64,000 bases of DNA from Desulfobulbaceae bacterium (GTDB lineage: Bacteria > Desulfobacterota > Desulfobulbia > Desulfobulbales > Desulfurivibrionaceae): positions 1 through 64,000 of the forward strand of contig SJBG01000009.1 in NCBI GenBank assembly GCA_004332195.1, given 5' to 3'. Under the pieces are notes generated by a model. It was not told where the DNA came from. It saw only the letters and a program-made list of their open reading frames with translations, and searched no databases. Positions 175 through 55,233 of the stretch are shown piece after piece (the stretch's first letter is position 1; every line of letters starts with the position of its first letter). Made by a program: the position numbers and the translations under genes.

Positions 175-325
175 GGCCACCTTCGTTATTTTGAAAAATT
201 AGCTATTTTGTTCGAGTTTACGGCACGTAAAAAAAAATTACCGCAGGCACATGGTTGATATTCCGAGGATAATTTTTTGAGCATAACGCGGAAATCGGGC
301 GAAAGAGCAATTTTTCAAGGTGGCC
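175..325. mobile_element. MITE-like element family 1, copy 1
   Basis: GGCCACCTT...GAAAAATTAGCTATTTTGTTCGAG...GAGCAATTTTTCAAGGTGGCC; flanks TTTT/TTTT. Confidence 0.85.
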
Positions 326-9795: not shown

Positions 9796-9940
9796 CGGCA
9801 ATTGAGTGGCGGAACCAGACCCATATACTTGCGGCCACCCTGAAAAATTGCTCTGGCGTATGGTTGATATTATGTTGCTAACAGAAACCGGAAAAAGGTT
9901 GCCGTTTGGAACAGAACCAACTATACTGCGGACTCTTTAT

Positions 9941-10038
9941 GGAAGTGGAAAGGGTACTGGTGGCCCTCCCGGACTTCAAATCCGGCGCACCGGGTTAACA
10001 GCTTGGTGGGTGGGTTCGATTCCCATGCACTTCCGCCA
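9941..10038 (+). tRNA. selC: tRNA-Sec (selenocysteine, anticodon TCA) with encoded CCA
   Basis: Anticodon arm CCGGA-CTTCAAA-TCCGG, long variable arm, T-arm GTGGG-TTCGATT-CCCAT, acceptor GGAAGTG/CACTTCC, GCCA 3' end. Length ~98 nt matches bacterial tRNA-Sec. Confidence 0.93.
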
Positions 10039-15059: not shown

Positions 15060-15647
15060 CTAATTTTTCAAGGTAGCCTCAAGTTCGTTGAGCAGTCGTT
15101 CAAGCGGTTGGGCGGTGTTGATGACCAGGAGTTGGTCGCCGCTGAGTTCGACAGGGTACTGGAATTTGTCCCGCTGACGGTGGTAGATTTCCCAGCGTCC
15201 ATCGGAGACGGCCTGAGGATCGCCGGCCCGGATGGCCAGTCGCTCCCGCCTGACCTGATCTGAACACTCGCAGAGTACAAAGTGGGCGATAAGGCCCAGC
15301 GAACCGGCCAGGGCGTTGACCTCGTCGCGTTCCAACCGACCCAGGTAAGCGGCATCAAGGACCACCTTTTTATTCTGGTGTAGATCGGTGGCGGCCCGGC
15401 AGAGCAGTTCGTCGTAGGTAAGGCGGCTGAACTCCGGCGAGTAAATGCCCTGGGCGGCATCCTCTGGGCGCCTGGTAGCGGCCGCCAGCCCGGCCAGTTC
15501 TTTGCGAACCACGTCGGAATTGTGGTAGCTTAAAGAGTGACGGGCGGCCCAAGCCTTGGCCAGGGTGCTCTTACCGGCGGCAATCATCCCGAAAAAAACG
15601 TAAAAGCGGGCAGGCGAAGATGTCGCTGAAGTTTGGCCCACTGTCCG
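15060..15647 (-). CDS. ATP-binding/kinase half of a bifunctional APH-like/AAA protein (split frame)
   Basis: FYVFFGMIAAGKSTLAKAWAARH (P-loop), CSDQVRRERLAIR. Usually the C-terminal domain of the adjoining phosphotransferase-like protein; exact start uncertain. Confidence 0.65.
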   Translation of the reverse strand, partial: RTVGQTSATSSPARFYVFFGMIAAGKSTLAKAWAARHSLSYHNSDVVRKELAGLAAATRRPEDAAQGIYSPEFSRLTYDELLCRAATDLHQNKKVVLDAAYLGRLERDEVNALAGSLGLIAHFVLCECSDQVRRERLAIRAGDPQAVSDGRWEIYHRQRDKFQYPVELSGDQLLVINTAQPLERLLNELEATLKN

Positions 15648-20157: not shown

Positions 20158-20299
20158 GGCCGCCTTGAAAAATCAGCTATTTTGTTCGAGATCAAGGCCT
20201 GCGAAAAAAAATTACCGCAGGCATAAGGTTGATATTCCGAGGATAATTTTTTGAGCATAACGCAGAAATCGAGCGAAAGAGCAATTTTTCAAGGTGGCC
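20158..20299. mobile_element. MITE-like element family 1, copy 2
   Basis: 142 bp, same termini and core; flanks TTTA/TCTA. Confidence 0.9.
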
Positions 20300-20435
20300 T
20301 CTAACCAAAAACATGATCTTCTAGCGCAATAGGTCGCAAAAGTCAATAAATGTCCACCTGGCTGACGCGATTGCGCGACTGAAGGTTACGCCGTTGTCGG
20401 CACAGGCACTGGGCATCCGGATTTGGGCCACCTTT

Positions 20436-20939
20436 TCAAGGTGGCCCAAAAAGGGAGGCGTGCGCCAAGAGTTTGGCGTGGACTATTTTGATACATTGAT
20501 CCATGATCACCGTCAACCCGGCGGCTTCGGCTTTGCGGGCCGCTTCATGATTGATCACCCCCTCCTGCATCCAGACGGCTCGAGCGCCCACCGCAATGGC
20601 CTCCTCCACCACCGGCAAAACCTGGTCGGAGCGGCGGAAGACATCGACAATATCGATACGGCCGATTTGTAGAGGACGACCTGGTTCCGAGGACTGTTCC
20701 GAAGCCTTCAAGGTTGCTAAGGACTGAGTGAGCGCCCGGGCGGCGCTGGTCAGGTTGGGGTAGCAAGGTAAGTCAAGAATTTCTTCTTGCCTGGGGTTGA
20801 CCGGGATTACTTGATAGCCGTGGTCCAGCAGGTAGCGGGCCACCCGGTTGCTTGGTCGATCTTGCTTGGGTGAAAGACCAACCACGGCAATGGTTCGGGC
20901 GGCGCTTAAAAGCGTACGATAGTTGGTTAAATTTTCCAC
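20436..20939 (-). CDS. CoA-binding protein (YccU family)
   Basis: TIAVVGLSPKQDRPSNRVARYLLDHGYQVIPVNPRQEEILDLPCYPNL, AVWMQEGVINHEAARKAEAAGLTVIMDQCIKI. Confidence 0.92.
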   Translation of the reverse strand: MENLTNYRTLLSAARTIAVVGLSPKQDRPSNRVARYLLDHGYQVIPVNPRQEEILDLPCYPNLTSAARALTQSLATLKASEQSSEPGRPLQIGRIDIVDVFRRSDQVLPVVEEAIAVGARAVWMQEGVINHEAARKAEAAGLTVIMDQCIKIVHAKLLAHASLFGPP

Positions 20940-21241: not shown

Positions 21242-21383
21242 GGCTATCTTGAAAAATTAGCTATTTTGTTCGAGTTCAAGACATGCGAAAAAAAATTACC
21301 GCAGGCATATAGTTGATATTCCGAGGATAATTTTTTGACCATAACGCAGAAATCTGGCGAAAGAGCAATTTTTCAAGGTGGCC
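21242..21383. mobile_element. MITE-like element family 1, copy 3
   Basis: 142 bp; flanks TTGA/TTGA. Confidence 0.92.
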
Positions 21384-35648: not shown

Positions 35649-35790
35649 GGCTATCTTGAAAAATTAGCTATTTTGTTCGAGTTTACGGCATGCGAAAAAA
35701 AAATTACCCAGGCATATGGTTGGTATTCCGAGGATAATTTTTTGAGCATAACGCAGAAATCGGGCGAAAGAGCAATTTTTCAAGGTGGCC
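35649..35790. mobile_element. MITE-like element family 1, copy 4
   Basis: 142 bp; flanks TTAA/TTTA; right flank overlaps the greA stop codon. Confidence 0.92.
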
Positions 35791-52919: not shown

Positions 52920-55070
52920 ATGGAGGAAAACGGCAAGATGCCGCAAGATCAGCAAAACCAAGCAGACCACGATGAACCTGGATCCAGGGTTGGTGTAAAA
53001 CCCGCGACCAGCGCCCAACTGGAATCCGCTCGAGAAAAACCCGAGCAGCAAGACCGCAAAGATGCCGCCGTCGTCGACCCGGGGGCCATCCCCGCCGCTG
53101 CCGCCCAAAAACCGGGGCGCAGTCCTTCGGCCCGACGTCGGGAACAAAGAGCCCGAGCCAAGGAAAGAGCGGCGACTAAAGACTCGGCTGATACTAGTCC
53201 CCAGGTTGCCGGGGTAACGGCCGCAACCGTCAGGCAACAAAAAAGCCACACCGACGACAAAATCCCAAGTAAGGCCGGCAGCTTGTCTAAAGCCGCAAAC
53301 CAGGGATCTACAAGTCTCAACAAGACGATAAAAACCCCGGTCGGTGACGACGCTGGCGCCATTTTGGCCGACACCGTCTCAGCCGGGAACGTACTAGCGG
53401 AGACGGCGCCGACAGGGACTTTATCGGCTGACCAGAAAACGGCGACCAAACCAGCCGCCCCAAAAAGAAAACGTCCGGTGAGTAAACGGGGCAAGCAACG
53501 CCAGGCCGAGGAGAAAAAATCGACTTTTGAATCCGCAAGCGCCGACAGTCCGGGCGATGAAACCCCCCCGGTCAGCGGGACTCACTGTAAGCTGTTGATC
53601 AATACCGACGAGCCGGAGGAGTGTCGTTTGGCGCTGGTGGAAAACGGCAAGGTGGAGGGTTTTTACATCGAATCGAAGAGTCGGGCCCAGTACAAAGGCA
53701 ACATTTATAAGGGCCGGATCACTTCGGTCGAGGCCAACCTCCAGGCGGCCTTCGTTGATATCGGCCTGCCCAAAAACGGTTTTCTCTCTTTCAGTGAGAT
53801 TCACCCGGAATACTACACAAAAAAAGTCGACCCCGACACCCACTGGAAAGACCTGAAAATTCAGGAGGTGATCAAGAAAAGCCAAGAGGTCCTGGTGGAA
53901 GTGGTCAAGGAGGCCGCCGGCAACAAGGGGCCCAGCCTCACCACCTACATTTCTCTGCCGGGCCGTTGTCTGGTGTTGATGCCGGGCAGTGACAGCGCTG
54001 GAATTTCGCGCAAAATCGACGATGAGGTCAAGCGTCGCAAACTCCGGGAGATGGCGGAGGCACTCAATATTCCCGAGGGGATCGGTTATATCGTCCGCAC
54101 CGCCAGCCAGGAAATAACCAAAACCGCGCTCAATCAGGATTTACGCTATCTCCTTAATCTCTGGGAAGAGATCAGGAAAACCGGCCAGGAGGTTGCTGCT
54201 CCGGCCCTGGTCTATCAGGAACAGAATATCATCTCTCGCTTTCTCCGCGACCACTACACCACCGATATCAAGGAGATCCTGGTGGACGCCGAAGATGCCG
54301 CCGAACAGGTTCGCGACTTTCTGCAACTGCTGCCGGCGATTCAGCGACGCAAAACCACGGTCAAGCTCCATCAGGGCAGTCAGCCAATTTTTCACCAGTA
54401 CCATGTGGAAAAACAAATCGAACAAATGTTTCAACCCACCATTCCCCTGGCCTCCGGGGGATCCATCGTAATCAATCCCACCGAGGCCCTGGTGGCCATC
54501 GATGTCAATTCGGGCCGTACCGCCGCTAAAGACCGCGATTTTGAGGCGAGCATCTTTATCGCCAACATGGAGGCGGCGGAAGAATTGGCCCGCCAGCTAC
54601 GGATGCGCGATTTAGGTGGCCTGATTGTGGTCGACTTCATCGATATGCGCAGTGCCGCCCATACCCGTGAAGTGGAGAAAAGGGTGCGGGAGTGCATGAA
54701 AAAGGACAAGGCCAAGGTGGATTTTTCCCGGATCTCCAAGTTTGGCCTGATGCAGATCTCCCGCCAAAAAATGGCGGCGCCAATCCAGACCACCAGCTAC
54801 AAGACTTGTCCCAATTGCGAGGGCCGAGGCATGATCCCCTCGGTGGAGAATCTGGCCTTAAGCCACCTGCGCCAGTTGCAGACCGGCCTGAGCCGCCGCA
54901 GGTCCAAAAAGGTAAATCTTTCCCTGCCGATGGATGTAGGCCAGTATATTCTCAACAAAAAACGGGAGGATTTGCTGGAATTGGAAAAGGAGTATCAAGC
55001 GGACATCATTATCGAAGTTGACCCAACCATGCCGCCGGCCGGCATTAAAATTGACTTCAGGCTATCTTGA
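52920..55070 (+). CDS. Ribonuclease E/G family protein with long disordered N-terminal extension
   Basis: KLLINTDEPEECRLALVENGKVEGFYIESKSRAQYKGNIYKGRITSVEANLQAAFVDIGLPKNGFL, VAIDVNSGR, GLIVVDFIDMRS, CPNCEGRGMI. Confidence 0.93.
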   Translation: MEENGKMPQDQQNQADHDEPGSRVGVKPATSAQLESAREKPEQQDRKDAAVVDPGAIPAAAAQKPGRSPSARRREQRARAKERAATKDSADTSPQVAGVTAATVRQQKSHTDDKIPSKAGSLSKAANQGSTSLNKTIKTPVGDDAGAILADTVSAGNVLAETAPTGTLSADQKTATKPAAPKRKRPVSKRGKQRQAEEKKSTFESASADSPGDETPPVSGTHCKLLINTDEPEECRLALVENGKVEGFYIESKSRAQYKGNIYKGRITSVEANLQAAFVDIGLPKNGFLSFSEIHPEYYTKKVDPDTHWKDLKIQEVIKKSQEVLVEVVKEAAGNKGPSLTTYISLPGRCLVLMPGSDSAGISRKIDDEVKRRKLREMAEALNIPEGIGYIVRTASQEITKTALNQDLRYLLNLWEEIRKTGQEVAAPALVYQEQNIISRFLRDHYTTDIKEILVDAEDAAEQVRDFLQLLPAIQRRKTTVKLHQGSQPIFHQYHVEKQIEQMFQPTIPLASGGSIVINPTEALVAIDVNSGRTAAKDRDFEASIFIANMEAAEELARQLRMRDLGGLIVVDFIDMRSAAHTREVEKRVRECMKKDKAKVDFSRISKFGLMQISRQKMAAPIQTTSYKTCPNCEGRGMIPSVENLALSHLRQLQTGLSRRRSKKVNLSLPMDVGQYILNKKREDLLELEKEYQADIIIEVDPTMPPAGIKIDFRLS

Positions 55071-55233
55071 AAAATTAGCTATTTTGTTCGAGTTTGCGGC
55101 ACGTAAAAAAAATGGTTGACCGATGCCGGTCAACAAGGGAACTTATTACCGCAGTCATATCGTTGATATTCCGAGGATAATTTTTTGAACATAACGCAGA
55201 GATCGGGCGAAAGAGCAATTTTTCAAGGTGGCC
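55060..55233. mobile_element. MITE-like element family 1, copy 5 (with 32-bp nested insert)
   Basis: 174 bp; flanks TTCA/TTCA; extra palindromic segment at ~55112-55145. Confidence 0.92.

Follow-up and report, generated by a model that had tools for sequence, protein, structure and literature searches.

A mobile hairpin element of Desulfobacterota with an RNA-like body and exchangeable ends

Five short repeats lie in the 64,000-nucleotide stretch of a Desulfobulbaceae genome analysed here (contig SJBG01000009.1; "the window"). We propose, with a probability of roughly 75%, that they represent a mobile DNA element that is moved in trans and combines a conserved, RNA-like hairpin body with several exchangeable classes of ends. 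The element is non-autonomous and MITE-like, measures ~141–142 bp (140–174 bp among copies) and has TIRs of 17 bp, as seen in the window copies and in 83 complete copies.

The original prediction described a five-copy, non-autonomous, MITE-like family. All five copies were recovered with the coordinates, ends, A/T-rich core and 4-bp flanks that it had given, three of the flank pairs being exact and two not (Table 1). The longest stop-free stretch in any window copy is 52 aa, so that no transposase is encoded between the ends, again as claimed. Five is the correct number for the window, but far too low for the genome, which holds ~135 copies. Copy 5 supplies the stop codon of a 716-aa ORF (52920–55070), the last codons of this upstream gene having been replaced by the insertion. 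Three smaller traces of the element were recognised by eye, and the small palindrome among them is possibly a deletion derivative.

Table 1. Element copies, relics and a tRNA gene in the window.
Feature	Position	Strand	Length (bp)	Flanks	Remarks
Copy 1	175–325	+	151	TTTT/TTTT (duplication)	Type A ends; 9-bp insert in left TIR; model match 184–325
Copy 2	20158–20299	+	142	TTTA/TCTA	RNA fold −57.3 kcal/mol, z −7.9 (+ strand)
Copy 3	21242–21383	+	142	TTGA/TTGA (duplication)
Copy 4	35649–35790	+	142	TTAA/TTTA
Copy 5	55060–55233	+	174	TTCA/TTCA (duplication)	32-bp internal hairpin insert; empty site in sister genome G004
Decayed relic	9833–9875	−			TIR-like GGCCACCCTGAAAAATTGCTCT, then loop-like GGCGTATGGTTGATATT; by eye
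Isolated right-end relic	15061–15078	+			TAATTTTTCAAGGTAGCC; by eye
Small palindrome	20426–20446				GGCCACCTTTTCAAGGTGGCC, two fused element tips; by eye
Selenocysteine tRNA gene	9941–10038

Did these copies arrive by transposition? Among the 83 complete copies, taken from the window and from 80 stretches of the same genome, 47 have identical 4-bp flanks, whereas 2000 shuffles gave 4.2 on average and never more than 12. Duplications of other lengths (2, 3, 5 bp and above) account for 0–5 copies only, and the composition of the flanks gives the target C|TWWA|G. The site of copy 5 was compared across four genomes of the same genus (81% DNA identity) and is empty in the sister genome G004, which reads GACTTTATCCGG where the genome under study has GACTTCA-element-TTCATCCGG. 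In the longer reading, GACTTTATCCGGGAGTAA stands against GACTTCA, element, TTCATCCGGAGTTAA; the target is single and clean, with one TTTA in G004 in place of two TTCA. Insertion of the element is therefore true transposition, and the duplicated flanks across the genome-wide set and the empty orthologous site uphold what had been predicted from the window copies. The element is a MITE on all features that could be tested, namely TIRs, 4-bp duplications at a defined target, an empty site and the lack of an ORF, a proven partner excepted.

The genome under study (G000; 1.66 Mb, 21 contigs) contains 135 core matches at up to three mismatches, as opposed to 0 for a reversed control, which amounts to ~1 element per 12 kb; at least 124 matches were returned by a covariance model. 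Local copies are on average 93% identical. Two complete genomes of the same genus yielded 0 copies by BLAST or covariance model while the genome under study has ~135, and the burst is therefore lineage-specific. It coincides with a small genome size: G000 is rated complete at 1.66 Mb, and complete genomes of the genus measure 2.8–3.1 Mb. Half-copies that break near the hairpin apex were also observed (L174, L182, L184, L185, L198; L116, L138, L143, L163, L165), the left halves stopping at positions 40–68 and the right halves beginning at 57–71. Orphan left ends, considered as possible IS elements, were rejected as such, because they belong either to half-copies or to complete copies whose cores have changed.

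The copies prefer the 3' ends of genes, in sense orientation. With ORFs chosen by length and no gene finder, 0 of 88 local copies fall inside an ORF of at least 70 aa. Between co-directional genes, 39 copies are sense and 17 antisense (p about 0.005, by hand), and in 59 of 87 cases the upstream gene reads into the element in sense. Several copies are located at or across the stop codon of the upstream gene, in part because the T/A-rich target often contains TAA. Two candidate functions were rejected: an intrinsic terminator, as the T-run is absent after the hairpin in the copies read, and an internal promoter (TTGATA...GATAAT), as its spacing is 7 bp only.

Covariation and strand asymmetry define the body as one long hairpin, interrupted by conserved internal loops, on one strand. 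For 53 diverse elements, RNAalifold predicts 27 pairs, 17 of them with double changes. A 33-pair structure is 95.6% paired and shows double changes in 19 pairs; it was assigned by hand after inspection of the same sequences, so that the percentage leans favourable and the double-change counts are safer. Cells with double changes number 158, compared to 43 after shuffling (0 of 500 shuffles reach the observed value) and at most 35 in slid controls. The covariation score is 0.332, compared to 0.147 shuffled and at most 0.118 slid. The inner stem occurs in the paired forms TTACC/GGATAA, TAAGC/GCATTA and TTTTAACC/GGATTAAAA, and the unpaired loop bases are conserved (CGCAGG / CCGAGG and AAGG / AACGCA). 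Because the TIRs join the same hairpin, their imperfection, GGCTATC versus GGTGGCC, corresponds to wobble pairs in RNA.

On the + strand, G-T cells exceed A-C cells by 148:22 in the body, or 72:22 once two wobble-dominated pairs are left out; elsewhere the ratios are 119:10 for local ends, 24:4 for class C and 33:20 for class B. Judged by minimum free energy, the + strand is the more stable one in 151 of 152 elements, with a mean gap per class of 11–18 kcal/mol. When clades are collapsed (75–80% clustering, 7–8 clusters), the asymmetry weakens to between 21:8 and 21:12, and shared ancestry therefore accounts for part of it. We infer from these folding and covariation models that the body has been selected as RNA, or as one single strand.

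Could the hairpin instead be selected as single-stranded DNA, needed by the mobilising machinery in replication or transposition and with no role as RNA? The long palindrome-like structure, the breaks of half-copies by the apex and the presence of a Y1 (RAYT-type) gene in the genome would agree with this, and yet we consider it quite improbable. If the role were in DNA, G-T would not be expected to prevail over A-C on one strand whatever the orientation of the insertion, the same strand is favoured across all end classes, and duplications of 4 and 6–7 bp indicate DDE rather than Y1 transposition. The Y1 transposase gene in question (RAYT-like, PF01797; L271, 1133–1423, − strand) sits beside an IS5 relic, is flanked by AAAGGGGACAGATTTATTTTT-type repeats and shows no linkage to element copies. 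REP sequences of the REP/RAYT system are hairpins of 20–40 nt moved by a Y1 transposase without target duplication, unlike the present element with its 141 bp and DDE-type duplications.

How widely is the element distributed? Relatives are present in other families of the same order, and the family was detected in 53 of 396 sampled Desulfobacterota genomes (~13%). Exact core matches come, among the matches listed, almost only from Desulfobacterota or old Deltaproteobacteria records, a few of which look misbinned. Contig QLUN01000034.1 (L081), filed as Chloroflexi BS517, carries an element whose sequence and flanks equal those of contig 6 of the genome under study, for which reason it is probably misbinned. 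Desulforhopalus (L057) and Treponema (L082) gave core matches that were dismissed as chance; the element is absent there. The culturable Desulfogranum mediterraneum DSM 13871, by contrast, carries a type-A copy (L054). The distribution bears on the possibility that the body is a host-beneficial non-coding RNA or regulatory element, for instance a 3'-end stabiliser, whose mobility is secondary. The conserved unpaired loop bases and the sense bias at gene ends are what such a function would leave behind, but patchy occurrence (the 53 genomes above), absence from sister species and bursts in copy number give the element a selfish look, and we regard a primarily host-serving role as unlikely.

Family members keep the length of 141 bp, and their central ~110 bp align almost without gaps. 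Their ends form at least four classes that differ in target duplication. Class A ends (GGGTRTCTTGAAWAATT) are accompanied by 4-bp duplications, exact in 8 of 16 elements in other genomes versus 0.9 expected, and class B ends (GTGTCYRTCCAGAAAT) by 6-bp duplications in 8 of 26 versus 0.5 expected, with two further cases of 7 bp. Most class C copies (GGAGGCTGTCCGAGAAT) have TA on both sides, a pattern in which a duplication is indistinguishable from a fixed target and its length is not provable; class D ends (GAGCCTYTTGCAAAATG) show a 4-bp duplication in 2 of 3. Mean identity of the body is 0.72–0.73 between classes and 0.73 within class A, while identity of the left end drops from >0.8 within a class to 0.46–0.61 between classes. 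In a maximum-likelihood tree of the body only (105 columns; fine branching not settled, A/B split strong), five A elements, four B elements and one further end type share a clade supported at 100/99; further A and B elements fall outside this clade, and seven class changes are required where the minimum is four. Since both A and B occur in both deep lineages of the core tree, ends have been exchanged among elements with one body, presumably through the change of mobiliser proposed below.

Inserts add to the variation in length. The 32-bp insert TGGTTGACCGATGCCGGTCAACAAGGGAACTT of copy 5 gives rise to a 172–174-bp variant also represented by ~13 of the 83 copies of the genome under study, and a close copy of it lies outside elements in L167. 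A hairpin-like insert of 24 bp, GGTAAGCGAGCCTGCGAGACTCCG, is found at several different positions in type A, B and C elements of different genomes (L058, L061, L063, L068, L089, L092, L215, L073; the elements in L073 and L215 are seemingly decayed) and is possibly a nested mini-element. A second insert, TGCCCCGCAGGAAATGCCCTTGGGG, is present in the loop of two elements, one of type C and one of type B, and in one further case lies outside elements altogether (L053, L077, L083).

Which transposases might move the element? The relative G047 carries a complete IS5-family element (NF033581, 276 bits, cut-off 140) with a TATA/TATA duplication and the ends GGGAGCCTTGAATAATT and GGGTTCCTTGAAAAATC (GGGAGCC.../GGGTTCC...). 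Another relative, G055, has several IS copies with GGGAACCTTGAAAATTA ends adjoining TTGA, TAAA and similar flanks, and a relic of the same IS5 transposase persists on contig 4 of the genome under study. The ends of the IS5 partner match type A partially, being similar and not identical, and the IS5 elements and the MITE have a 4-bp A/T-rich target in common but no DNA past the tips. In the genome under study, a search for an intact transposase with exact element ends returned the IS5 relic only; a PF01609 profile search gave three weak places, rejected as autonomous partners since none has type A ends. The sequence comparisons thus make an IS5-family transposase the likely mobiliser in this genome, supported and not proven because the ends in G047 are similar rather than identical. 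The IS5 parent suggested by the original prediction accordingly gains a similar-ended element in a relative and a local relic, and lacks an intact partner here.

For type B, ISNCY elements (NF033593) have matching ends: in G242, an ISNCY transposase (384 bits, cut-off 325) has an exact type-B end ~125 bp upstream of it, and the hairpin body is missing from the interval. In G056, a broken transposase gene containing a DUF772 domain lies between two type-D ends. No mobiliser of type C was found, including by a search for DUF4096 transposases. Different end classes thus fit different transposase families. The IS5 and ISNCY partners differ from the element in carrying transposase genes and no hairpin body; only the terminal ~17 bp are common to both.

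It is against this background that the conventional explanation must be weighed: an ordinary MITE, internally deleted from an IS5-family element, in which the hairpin simply follows from the long imperfect inverted repeats, and a recent burst and horizontal spread account for the conservation of the body. The type of ends, the 4-bp duplications, the IS5 relic, the similar IS5 element in relatives and the high identity of local copies are all as expected from such an origin. However, bodies that differ by ~27% between genomes remain paired, and their inner stem, at a distance from the ends, has undergone many double changes; the complementarity is one-sided; neither IS5 nor ISNCY partners contain the body; and the body stays while the ends change. 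We therefore find an ordinary IS5-derived MITE a rather doubtful account.

Under our preferred reading, a mobile element moved in trans with a hairpin body and exchangeable ends, DDE transposases would act in trans on the 17-bp TIRs. In the genome under study these would be ends of the IS5 kind, with insertion duplicating 4 bp at the target, the identity of the transposase being suggested by related IS elements and the local relic. The element would most likely be transcribed by read-through from the upstream gene, and selection would act on the folded RNA, the hairpin perhaps serving processing or stability such that insertions at 3' ends are tolerable or useful. The lineage may persist by changing its mobiliser, with IS5-like, ISNCY and two other end classes on one body. 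More tentatively, and at somewhat less than even odds, the unit of selection could be the structured RNA body itself, which would have taken its ends repeatedly from active DDE families of the host, at a constant 141 bp, over phylum-scale time.

Is the element related to known systems? E. coli genomes carry ERIC, and a distant-sensitivity search of 20,395 E. coli records detected no match to the element. ERIC (IRU) of Enterobacteriaceae and Vibrionaceae is likewise a small, intergenic, palindromic mobile element with tens to hundreds of copies and a long RNA hairpin, and alters transcript levels at gene 3' ends in Yersinia (PMC10969869); the element described here differs in its 4-bp and 6–7-bp duplications and in having several end classes on one body. 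Correia elements of Neisseria are MITEs with a folded transcript that RNase III cleaves at the terminal repeats (PMC10969869); they are set apart by description, belonging to another host group and having no described conserved body with exchangeable ends. QMITE1 and QMITE2 of Coxiella burnetii are transcribed MITEs with stable RNA hairpins, QMITE2 mostly in 3' untranslated regions, but measure ~400 bp and 190 bp, have direct repeats of other lengths and are confined to a single species (PMC5896051, PMC10969869). Chunjie, a MITE from the related anaerobic lineage of Geobacter uraniireducens, is present in 38 copies, likewise has conserved ends and direct repeats, and is distinguished by its described length of 178–235 bp (PMC10969869).

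The window copies matched no Rfam family at gathering score, five loci giving only a sub-threshold miRNA match (E 0.1), and no match to the element was found in plasmids, phages or viral contigs. Among the papers covered, mostly open ones, MITEs with RNA roles were represented by ERIC, Correia and QMITE, and none was described with the same body or changing ends. The apparent novelty lies in the conserved RNA-like body together with the exchange of ends; the MITE nature itself is known.

MITEs are usually seen as insertion sequences in decay whose middles are neutral. In the present family, which numbers hundreds of copies across Desulfobacterota, it is the middle that is conserved, and the ends can be replaced. 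The family lends itself as a natural test both of the use of an RNA fold to a parasite and of the way in which non-autonomous elements switch their transposase.
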